A stretch of DNA of 64,000 bases from Lachnospiraceae bacterium (GTDB lineage: Bacteria > Bacillota > Clostridia > Lachnospirales > Lachnospiraceae): NCBI GenBank assembly GCA_017621815.1, contig JAGASK010000043.1, forward strand, positions 124,001-188,000, given 5' to 3'. Below, piece after piece: positions 8,190-20,357 of the stretch. Position 1 is the first letter of the stretch, and each line of letters starts with the position of its first letter. The position numbers and the translations under genes were made by a program. Under the pieces are notes generated by a model, which saw only the letters and a list, made by a program, of their open reading frames with translations, was not told where the DNA came from and did no database searches.

Positions 8190-8258
8190 AAGTGTACACC
8201 CTTTGTATGAATTCATTTGAAGCTGATACAGAGGGAAGTCTATAAGGAAAGGAGCTTG
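8169..8258. repeat. Inverted repeat spanning promoter spacer and ribosome site
   Basis: The arm at 8169-8185 (CAAGCTCCTTTCCTATA) is the reverse complement of 8241-8258 except for one inserted base. The right arm contains the AGGAAAGGAG ribosome site of the following gene, the left arm lies between the -35 and -10 boxes. Spacing between arms is 55 bases. Confidence 0.7.
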
Positions 8259-8262
8259 TGTT

Positions 8263-8688
8263 ATGACCGATACGGAACTGATTTTAAGTAAGCTTGATGA
8301 GATGCGAACAGAGCTGAAAGGTGACATACAGGATGTACGTATGGAGCTGAAAGGCGATATACAGGATGTACGTATGGAGCTGAAAGGCGATATACAGGAT
8401 GTGCGCACAGAGCTGAAAGATGATATGCAGAGTTTGCAGACAAGGCTGAATGAAAGTATGCAGGATATGCATATCGAACTTTGCGGGAAGATTGCAGCAG
8501 TACAGTCGGCAGTCAGTGATCTCAGGGAGCGAATGGATGTAATGGAATTCGGCCTTCAGACAGAGATTGAAAAAACATATGAGCTTGCGCAGGAGAATGC
8601 TCATAATATCAGGATTTTAATGGCTGACAGAGCCAGAAACTGCCAGCGGAAAGCTAAAATCAGATTAATTACGGATTATAAGAACTGA
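8263..8688 (+). CDS. Small hendecad-repeat coiled-coil protein, function unknown
   Basis: The 141-residue protein has no recognised enzymatic domain. Residues about 14-80 are 11-residue repeats of the form (V/M)R-x-ELKGDIQD, copied almost exactly three times and then diverging; hendecad spacing predicts a long right-handed or straight coiled coil. The second half has conventional heptads (VSDLRERMDVM) and a basic C-terminus (RARNCQRKAKIR). At DNA level the first four repeats are 33-bp tandem copies. There is no signal peptide or membrane segment. The start at 8263 has a strong AGGAAAGGAG ribosome site. Similar short repeat coiled coils are common in Clostridia without known role; a structural or DNA/membrane-tethering part is a guess. 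Confidence 0.75.
   Translation: MTDTELILSKLDEMRTELKGDIQDVRMELKGDIQDVRMELKGDIQDVRTELKDDMQSLQTRLNESMQDMHIELCGKIAAVQSAVSDLRERMDVMEFGLQTEIEKTYELAQENAHNIRILMADRARNCQRKAKIRLITDYKN
8311..8442 (+). repeat. 33-bp tandem repeat, four copies, in-frame
   Basis: Copies begin at 8311, 8344, 8377 and 8410, each starting GAGCTGAAAG. The second and third are nearly identical, the fourth diverged. Each encodes 11 residues, so copy-number change would keep the frame. Confidence 0.9.
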
Positions 8689-18371: not shown

Positions 18372-18677
18372 ATGGAAGAGGATTTTAAAGTGATTGATAA
18401 TTACCTGATGGTAAAAATGCCGGAAGAGGTAGACCATCACAAATCGGTTTACATAAGCCAGACTGCAGACCGGTATATTATGAAGGAGGGAGTAGGAAAT
18501 GTGGTATTCGATTTTGAAGATACCAGGTTCATGGACAGCTCCGGCATAGGAATCATAATAGGAAGATATAAAAAAATTTCATATTTCGGCGGAAAAGTTT
18601 TTGCCATCAACACAGATTCCAGAATAAAAAGAACCCTGATGATTTGCGGTTTACATAAAGTTATAGAAATCATGTGA
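18372..18677 (+). CDS. spoIIAA: Anti-sigma F factor antagonist SpoIIAA
   Basis: The 101-residue STAS-domain protein contains FEDTRFMDSSGIGIIIGRYK; the second Ser of DSSGIG is the residue phosphorylated by SpoIIAB in the family. Dephosphorylated SpoIIAA displaces SigF from SpoIIAB and so starts forespore gene expression. I place the start at ATG 18372, which follows GGGGAAAAGG; the upstream extension to 18315 runs through the preceding terminator. Unlike the usual overlapping spoIIAA-spoIIAB order, 432 bases of repeat DNA follow before spoIIAB. Confidence 0.93.
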   Translation: MEEDFKVIDNYLMVKMPEEVDHHKSVYISQTADRYIMKEGVGNVVFDFEDTRFMDSSGIGIIIGRYKKISYFGGKVFAINTDSRIKRTLMICGLHKVIEIM

Positions 18678-18683
18678 AATCCC

Positions 18684-19096
18684 AGTGAGCCAAGTGAAGC
18701 ACCTGCACGCTTGCGTGCAAGGGGCGTCATTTGGCGAACGGCCGCATGAGCAAGGAGCGCAAAGCGCGGAGTGCGAATGAGGCGGTCTGCGGAGCAGACG
18801 GGATTGAACAGGGTGAAGAAAGCCAGGTGCGATGCCTGCGTGCTTGCACGCAAGGAATCGGATTTGGCGAACGGCCGCATGAGCAAGGAGCGCAAAGCGC
18901 GGAATGCGAATGAGGCGGTCTGCGGAGCAGACGGGATTGAACAGTGTGAAGAAAGCCAAGTGAGAAATCTGCGTGCTTGCACGCAAGGAATCGGATTTGG
19001 CGAACGGCCGCATGAGCAAGGAGCGCAAAGCGCGGAATGCGAATGAGGCGGTCTGCGGAGCAGACGGGATTGAACAGTGTGAAGAAAGCCAGGTGA
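18684..19096. repeat. 133-bp GC-rich tandem repeat array between spoIIAA and spoIIAB
   Basis: GGCGAACGGCCGCATGAGCA occurs at 18733, 18866 and 18999, exactly 133 bp apart. Two copies are complete, the third is cut at about 19095, and a diverged partial copy precedes the first (18688-18732). Each copy holds three perfect small dyads: GCGC-AAA-GCGC, GTCTGC-GGA-GCAGAC and GCGTGC-TT-GCACGC. The array is clearly richer in GC than its neighbours. Long open frames seen across it on the - strand reflect lack of stops in the unit, not genes: 133 is not a multiple of 3, so no frame repeats from copy to copy. Confidence 0.95.
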
Positions 19097-19109
19097 AAGG
19101 AGAAAGAAA

Positions 19110-19625
19110 ATGGAAATAGAAAAAAGCATGGAAGTAAGAAATAGAAACAGAAAAAGAATGAAAAACGAAATGAAGCTGGAATTTGATGCGGTGTCAGAAA
19201 ATGAAGCCTTTGCGCGTGTTGCCGTATCTGCATTCGTAACGCCCCTGAATCCTACTATGGAGGAAATTTCCGATATTAAAACGGCAGTTTCGGAAGCCGT
19301 TACCAATGCCATTATCCATGGGTATGACAGGGAAGAGGGAACTTTCGGCGATGACAGGGAATGCAAGGTATCCTTACACTGTCTGATTCTGGAGGATGTG
19401 CTTCATGTGGAAATAGCAGATGAAGGAAAAGGAATTGAAAATATTGAACAGGCCATGGAACCGCTCTTTACCACCAAGCCTGATATGGACAGGTCGGGAA
19501 TGGGCTTCGCCTTCATGGAAGCTTTTATGGATGATCTGGAGGTCATTTCAGAGCCGGGAATGGGAACCACAGTGCTGATGAAGAAGAAACTGGGGACAAC
19601 GTCATGGATTGGGCATGAGGAATAG
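19110..19625 (+). CDS. spoIIAB: Anti-sigma F factor/serine kinase SpoIIAB
   Basis: The product (171 residues) is a GHKL-fold kinase: N box EAVTNAIIHGY, ADEGKGIENI, FTTKPDMDRSGMGF as the ATP lid. SpoIIAB binds SigF and phosphorylates SpoIIAA, keeping SigF silent before septation. Homologues usually start near NEMKLEF (about 145 residues); here ATG 19110, with AAAGGAG 7 bases upstream, adds about 18 basic, low-complexity residues. An internal start at 19158 would give the usual length but has a weaker ribosome site. The chosen ribosome site begins exactly at the edge of the repeat array. Confidence 0.92.
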   Translation: MEIEKSMEVRNRNRKRMKNEMKLEFDAVSENEAFARVAVSAFVTPLNPTMEEISDIKTAVSEAVTNAIIHGYDREEGTFGDDRECKVSLHCLILEDVLHVEIADEGKGIENIEQAMEPLFTTKPDMDRSGMGFAFMEAFMDDLEVISEPGMGTTVLMKKKLGTTSWIGHEE

Positions 19626-19628
19626 ACT

Positions 19629-20357
19629 ATGACGGAAACAGCAGTACTTATCAGACAGGCACAGGCGGGAAAAAGGGAATCAAGAGAAGTACTGATAGAA
19701 CAGAATCTGGGACTGGTGCATCACATTGTAAAGCGTTTTCTGGGAAGAGGATATGAAGCGGAGGATTTATTCCAGATAGGGGTAATAGGGCTGATTAAGG
19801 CCATCGATAAATTTGACACCTCTTTTGAGGTAAAGTTTTCCACCTATGCGGTGCCCCTTATTGCAGGAGAAATCAAGCGCTTTATCAGGGATGACGGACC
19901 GGTTAAGGTATCAAGGACATTAAAAGAAAACGGCATTAAGGTAAAATATGCAAGGGAGAGGCTGAACATGCAGCTGAACAGGGAGCCTACAGTAGAGGAA
20001 GTGGCGAAGGAAGCAGTGCTTACCACAGAAGAAGTGGTGCTTGCCATGGAAGCCAGCATACAGGTGGAATCCATTTATAAGTCAGTTTATCAAAATGACG
20101 GCAATGAAATTTATATGGTAGACCAGCTGGCCGATAAAGGGAAGGATGAACAGGAAAACCTGTTGAATCACCTGGTGGTGAATCAGCTTATCGGAAGCCT
20201 GCCGGAAAAAGAACAGAAATTGATTGTGCTCAGGTACTTTCAGGATAAGACCCAGACGGAAGTGGCTAAAATACTCGGCATCAGCCAGGTACAGGTCAGC
20301 CGTCTGGAGAAAAGAATACTTCTTGCCCTACGGGAAAAAATGATGGAGAAGGTCTGA
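19629..20357 (+). CDS. sigF: RNA polymerase sporulation sigma factor SigF
   Basis: The 242-residue sigma-70 family protein has region 2 (NLGLVHHIVKRF, EDLFQIGVIGLIKAIDKFD, FSTYAVPLIAGEIKRFIRDD), region 3 and a region 4 helix-turn-helix (TQTEVAKILGISQVQVSRLE). The order after spoIIAA and spoIIAB identifies it as SigF (SpoIIAC), the first forespore-specific sigma factor. It starts 3 bases after the spoIIAB stop, so both are translated together. Confidence 0.96.
   Translation: MTETAVLIRQAQAGKRESREVLIEQNLGLVHHIVKRFLGRGYEAEDLFQIGVIGLIKAIDKFDTSFEVKFSTYAVPLIAGEIKRFIRDDGPVKVSRTLKENGIKVKYARERLNMQLNREPTVEEVAKEAVLTTEEVVLAMEASIQVESIYKSVYQNDGNEIYMVDQLADKGKDEQENLLNHLVVNQLIGSLPEKEQKLIVLRYFQDKTQTEVAKILGISQVQVSRLEKRILLALREKMMEKV

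Follow-up and report, generated by a model that had tools for sequence, protein, structure and literature searches.

Tandem Clostridiales-1 RNA elements between spoIIAA and spoIIAB of a Lachnospiraceae bacterium, and the placement of their family behind stop codons

The repeat array that separates spoIIAA from spoIIAB in the genome of a Lachnospiraceae bacterium can, on sequence and predicted fold, be securely assigned to the Clostridiales-1 element (RF01699), three partly degenerate units of which follow one another in tandem. The identity and the dispersal of this family are likewise secure, and its mobility is well supported in one genome, G418, a conclusion that we do not extend to the array described here. 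Our best explanation, which we hold to be slightly better than an even call, is that the array represents a mobile, structured, stop-codon-anchored RNA element that would act in cis on the messenger RNA, comparable to the ERIC element of Yersinia.

Results

The spoIIA spacer is filled by a tandem array

We analysed a window of 64,000 nucleotides (the whole stretch of DNA under study). The gene spoIIAA (18372..18677, + strand; Pfam STAS) ends with TGA at 18675-18677, adjoining the array, and spoIIAB, which encodes the anti-sigma F kinase (19110..19625, + strand; Pfam HATPase_c_2), starts with ATG at 19110. The gap of 432 nt between them is filled by three 133-bp units. sigF (19629..20357, + strand; Pfam sigma-70 regions 2-4) follows 3 nt after spoIIAB. 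TRF identified a repeat at 18729-19096 with a period of 133, 2.8 copies, 96% matches and a score of 687, and copies of 142 nt without gaps begin at 18688, 18821 and 18954, at a spacing of exactly 133, the second and third being 87% and 89% identical to the first. Over 133 nt, copies 1 and 2 share 115 bases, copies 1 and 3 share 117 and copies 2 and 3 share 128, which leaves 5-18 differing positions between any two of them. The G+C content was 59% in 18684-19096 versus 43% in the window. These results bear out the preliminary description of this region, which had reported a GC-rich 133-bp array between spoIIAA and spoIIAB and placed it inside the operon, where it is indeed flanked by Pfam-supported genes. 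Elsewhere in the window, a 33-bp tandem repeat of 3.6 copies was observed at 8311-8430; no ORF of at least 150 aa overlaps 8200-8500.

The spoIIAA TGA lies immediately 5′ of the element's AATCCC, and the first base of the array is the final base of this stop codon. Unlike spoIIAA at the 29 other loci read in the genus, the window gene has no C-terminal Glu codon: SpoIIAA ends with Met-Glu in 28 of these 29 loci and with Leu-Glu in one, and with Met in the window.

The three copies match the Clostridiales-1 family

Copy 1 (18677..18809, + strand) is predicted to form the full Clostridiales-1 fold with the closing stem P1 (AATCCC/GGGATT) and P2, P3 and P4, with 62.6 bits for RF01699 and a fold z of -6.3. 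Copies 2 (18810..18942, + strand; 55.5 bits) and 3 (18943..19075, + strand; 52.7 bits) retain P2, P3 and P4 in a predicted fold without P1, with z of -4.3 for 18821-18942 and -3.1 for 18954-19075. All three pass the curated RF01699 threshold of 48 bits in the genome search, and two of the three were listed as RF01699 by cmscan of the window, copy 2 being absent from that listing. The three small dyads per copy that had been noticed earlier correspond to the apical P2 hairpin, P3 and P4. The window units resemble the RF01699 model in sequence and fold; however, they are shorter (133 bp versus 166 model positions) and tandem, their P4 is simplified, and P1 is present in copy 1 only. Across 15 genus copies, compensatory change was found in 19 of 28 pairs.

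Downstream of copy 3, an inter-unit stretch with the first bases of a truncated fourth unit (19076..19096, + strand; boundary set by eye) adjoins the spoIIAB ribosome-binding region (19097..19109, + strand), which is predicted to be unpaired with an accessibility of 0.97, the highest value for a spoIIAB start region among 30 genus loci. The stretch 18660-19140 has a predicted fold energy of -186.4 kcal/mol versus -146.1 (sd 5.4) in 100 shuffles (z -7.4), a strong predicted fold at the site for which mRNA folding had been considered earlier. A consensus scan of the array identified no promoter- or terminator-like sites. No terminal inverted repeats could be recognised at the window array, and no target duplication was recognised there by eye.

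RF01699 originates from Weinberg et al. 2010 as an RNA candidate without assigned function (PMC2864571), and the table of that paper gives Clostridiales-1 as probably RNA, not cis-regulatory and not a riboswitch. A whole-word search of its main text for 'repeat', 'mobile' and 'multiple copies' gave no occurrence (PMC2864571). At the level of titles and listings, a literature search by the name Clostridiales-1 revealed no paper on its function.

The array is found in this species only among the spoIIA loci read in its genus

The preliminary description had proposed to compare the spoIIA spacing in close relatives. Of 35 genus genomes that gave a SpoIIAB match, we read the gap in 30, setting start codons by a simple rule. 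The spoIIAA-spoIIAB gap was 7-126 nt in the 29 other loci, all shorter than the 432 nt of the window, and the spoIIAB-sigF gap was 2-3 nt in 30 of 30, confirming that sigF is kept close to spoIIAB, as it is here. A Clostridiales-1 element was present at the spoIIAA-spoIIAB joint in the window locus only. Among 80 named spoIIAB loci, partly from the same species, spoIIAA lay on the fetched stretch in 79; it overlapped spoIIAB in 14 of the 79, and the gap was at least 90 nt in 14. The earlier statement that spoIIA genes overlap or abut thus holds for part of the named loci; however, spoIIAA and spoIIAB do not overlap in the 29 close relatives.

In Parablautia intestinalis the spoIIAA-spoIIAB spacer (L054, L132) is a different, unrelated dispersed repeat. 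Its own genome gave 49 matches to the 109-nt query, and 13 of these (itself included) cover at least 69 nt of it; in Parablautia muri 68 pieces, mostly short, matched. The spoIIAA-spoIIAB joint is therefore elastic and has taken up unrelated repeats independently. A part of about 37 bp of the P. intestinalis repeat forms a long tandem run in P. muri (contig 167:79284-80099), and hairpin- or repeat-bearing spacers were also observed in the spoIIAA-spoIIAB gap of L112, L130, L157, L158, L163, L167 and L172.

A search of 91 of 110 spoIIA loci with a model built from genus copies gave, besides the window locus, one row with an E value of 0.44; this search recovered just one of the three copies in the window and can therefore overlook others. 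When 8 spoIIA loci were scanned with Rfam, no family exceeded its cut-off.

The family is dispersed, and is a MITE in one genome

Of 392 genomes searched in the order, 111 had an RF01699 match (93 above the cut-off), as did 20 of 60 relatives, the own genome being included in both counts. Three genomes, G418, G386 and G146, carry 111, 93 and 70 matches, which bears out the earlier guess of a dispersed element family. No match to the exact unit core in named genomes, or to a looser core pattern in viral contigs, was identified in searches from which records near the window may be excluded.

In G418 the element extends beyond the Rfam model to about 185 bp, with the ends TGATACCAGGGTCAAAAGG and its near-complement. 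These terminal inverted repeats are about 19 bp in the G418 copies, and such repeats were also recognised by eye in two copies of the genus member G006. Among the 36 G418 copies in which both ends could be recognised, 28 had an exact 5-bp target duplication, versus 49 of 1260 mismatched pairs; 18 of the 54 copies in this count had no recognised 3′ end. It is therefore well supported that the RF01699 element of G418 is a MITE of about 185 bp, a conclusion on the family in that genome, the window array having no recognised target duplication. The G418 copies are nearly alike and so probably recent. Among 20 end-bearing regions of G418, judged by the first ORF residues only, no transposase was seen between paired ends that could be an autonomous partner. 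Our literature search on MITEs of Lachnospiraceae showed nothing relevant among the papers listed.

Two further observations were made. Derivatives of about 71 bp in G418 (for example L255 and L259) are MITE ends without the RNA core. In Lachnospiraceae bacterium 10-1 (G008; L015 and L031), tandem copies occur in which the GAGCAAGGAG core abuts the start codon and may be its ribosome-binding site.

In a chosen sample, elements outside G418 lie preferentially in sense at upstream stop codons

We then surveyed placement in 104 loci of the order and the genus, a convenience sample from better-scoring rows in which some genomes occur several times; short loci, low-scoring genus rows, G056, G051 and further G386 and G146 copies were omitted. 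ORFs of at least 100 aa were used without a gene caller. Two distances were compared, sense stop to element 5′ end and antisense stop to element 3′ end, and stops between -16 and +10 nt were counted. A stop lay at the element end in 31 sense versus 3 antisense cases (5, 22 and 4 versus 1, 1 and 1; binomial 8e-7). MITE copies truly end about 31 nt past the model 3′ end; when antisense stops 20-45 nt past that end were therefore added, the result became 31 versus 10 (p 0.0015), which weakens the case for our best explanation; the same wider range on both sides gave 34 sense versus 10 antisense (p 0.0004). The 31 sense cases contain speE twice and four members of one protein family, judged alike by eye (the three that were profiled had no match), and counting speE and this family once each left 27 sense versus 3 antisense. 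Across all tandem-gene contexts the orientation was weak, 26 versus 17, and the 44 loci of G418 showed no sense bias (5 versus 2, or 5 versus 7 in the wider count); both results speak against our best explanation. In the wider count, the 31 versus 10 found elsewhere differed from the 5 versus 7 of G418 with a Fisher p of 0.04. It is therefore well supported, for this chosen sample, that elements outside G418 lie preferentially in sense with the 5′ end at an upstream stop codon. The spoIIA array belongs to this sense, stop-codon-anchored class.

A sense ORF followed within 150 nt downstream in 16 of the 31 sense cases. Seventeen of the upstream proteins were profiled and 14 matched, including those of speE (two genomes), nusG, atpG, atpB, metK, eno, greA, purF, thymidylate synthase and cysK. 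We examined 10 of the 22 rows of the window-like subfamily outside the own genome: eight lie in sense at a stop, and for two the upstream gene is antisense. Members of this subfamily are placed after flgG (four genus species, truncated in one) and after metF, rpsD and a PNPase gene (one each), and the metF-SDR element occurs in two species. Most genomes have no element at any given locus examined, indicating that no such copy is essential.

The closing stem often overlaps the end of the upstream gene

For 20 of the 31 sense cases the frame of the upstream gene runs into the element and terminates there, so that its final codons, or part of its stop, lie in the first bases of the element, the 5′ arm of P1 in Rfam. 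As judged by eye, P1 pairing is kept in the four copies behind one protein family despite a stop codon of TAG, TGA or TAA. Outward pairing of P1 into the flanks gave on average 1.65 extra pairs in the 31 sense cases versus 0.40 with shuffled flanks, 1.01 versus 0.54 in the other 73 loci, and 0.14 versus 0.11 in G418. All 25 element-free genus loci that were read have a FlgG ending in NNLKR (one of the 30 loci surveyed gave no end by the motif), a result that counts against our best explanation. Since NNLKR is present without the element, it was the 3′ arm that came to match a pre-existing coding end at flgG. Selection and template-switch correction of imperfect palindromes both explain this matching.

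A second array in the same genome keeps P2 pairing

The preliminary description had also proposed searching the genome and its relatives for the 133-bp unit, and family members were found in both. By the Rfam model and BLAST, the spoIIA array alone was recovered in the own genome. The genus-copy model detected more copies there, at one end each of contigs 42 and 6: the end of contig 6 carries metF and one unit, and the start of contig 42 carries two units at a spacing of 129 bp, followed by an SDR gene. Together they make up a second, diverged tandem array of Clostridiales-1 elements (G000 contig 42:1-240 and contig 6:1-110; L277, L278). Most simply, the two contig ends are one metF-array-SDR joint where the assembly broke; in G030, metF, the element and the SDR gene lie on a single contig.

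Taking the copy 1 fold as the structure, we found that P2 differs between the two own-genome arrays with the pairing kept, with 8 doubly changed pairs in 4 distinct copies and 0 of 500 shuffles reaching this. The metF stem is CTGATATAGC/GCTATATCAG in G030 and CCTGGTATA/TATACCAGG in the genome of the window, where the two arms lie on two contigs assumed to join; the G-C to A-U difference alters a codon, as judged by eye.

Discussion

Relatives of the repeat lie behind the stops of many genes, which suggests an action on messenger RNA. In this view, P1 would stay open as long as a terminating ribosome occupies the stop codon, and would form once that site is vacant. The closed fold could then block 3′-to-5′ decay or present a cleavage site, and it may separate the translation of the upstream and downstream genes. 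In spoIIA, the stability of the spoIIAA segment might thereby be set apart from that of spoIIAB-sigF, with the spoIIAB start site left open. Given that this start is predicted to be open and that neither promoter- nor terminator-like sites were seen in the array, differing segment stabilities and lost coupling seem the likeliest consequences. A literature search on translational coupling of SpoIIAA and SpoIIAB showed nothing relevant among the papers listed. The lack of P1 in copies 2 and 3 and the window array's lack of a recognisable target duplication tell against our best explanation.

Several known systems can be compared. Enterobacterial REP/PU elements are palindromic units behind stop codons, shorter than Clostridiales-1 and not known to carry target duplications. 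Mycobacterial MIRU elements are tandem, dispersed and located between operon genes, and are like the window array by description only. Passages of PMC2229807 and PMC10969869 describe Yersinia ERIC as a small, co-transcribed MITE at the 3′ end of genes whose orientation matters, with ribosome-induced exposure of a cleavage site being proposed. Clostridiales-1 is similarly sense-placed at the 3′ end of genes (31 versus 3, or 31 versus 10, of 104 loci); unlike ERIC, it has a four-way junction, the comparison being one of description and not of sequence. The host of the array presumably has other RNases than that of ERIC. The same two sources describe the Neisseria Correia/NEMIS element as a MITE that has inverted repeats and a target duplication and gives rise to a processed RNA (PMC2229807, PMC10969869). 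The RF01699 family shows such inverted repeats and target duplication in G418; its size and fold differ from those described for Correia/NEMIS. A passage of PMC12320835 reports that REP-containing mRNAs are degraded by RNase R and PNPase, and in the accessible part of PMC5009743 no passage on REP sequences at stop codons was found.

A serious rival, which we regard as possible at appreciably lower probability, is that the array is neutral debris: a MITE in an operon joint that tolerates spacers, tandemly duplicated by slippage or unequal recombination and now decaying. The sense bias would then reflect loss of antisense copies or an insertion preference, and the match between P1 and its flank would be template-switch palindrome correction. 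Such an origin is consistent with the elasticity of the joint (7-432 nt in 30 genus loci, another dispersed repeat in P. intestinalis, and the gaps of at least 90 nt in named loci), with the P1-less copies 2 and 3 and the open spoIIAB start predicted here, and with the G418 orientation counts. However, double changes keep P2 between copies of one genome, the metF-SDR element is shared by two species, four carry the flgG element, truncated in one of them, and a sense bias exists outside G418, all of which argue against mere decay.

The cis-acting element that we favour could also be taken further. Clostridiales-1 may be a mobile RNA that has been domesticated as a sensor of translation termination and switches mRNA fate on both sides, amplified here in the operon that times sporulation; we offer this only tentatively and think it rather unlikely. 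The closing helix would hold the end of the upstream gene, often its stop codon, and the terminating ribosome would open it.

That the array is a device specific to spoIIA, tuning the SpoIIAA:SpoIIAB ratio and hence the activation threshold of sigma F, seems improbable to us. Its place inside the switch operon, the strong predicted fold and the untouched sigF-spoIIAB spacing would suit such a role; however, it is present in this species only among the genus loci read, the model search of spoIIA loci, with its incomplete recovery of the window copies, gave no other copy, and family members lie behind genes of unrelated function. The earlier suggestion of a separate small RNA, cut from the array or transcribed within it, found no support and is very improbable: Rfam types RF01699 as an sRNA gene and the original table calls it probably RNA and not cis-regulatory, but the consensus scan saw no site at which a transcript would start or end, and sense placement at stop codons fits co-transcription. 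An assembly artefact, which the preliminary description had named as grounds for refutation, is hardly credible because the copies differ from each other and their flanks form an intact operon, even though the draft genome has 52 contigs and the related array lies at two contig ends.

An RNA family that has been listed without function since 2010 thus gains a testable one, as a mobile element with many copies on sense stop codons. The proposed function can be tested in several housekeeping operons of gut Lachnospirales. The array itself exemplifies how small mobile elements can become part of operons, in this case of the operon that governs the decision to sporulate.
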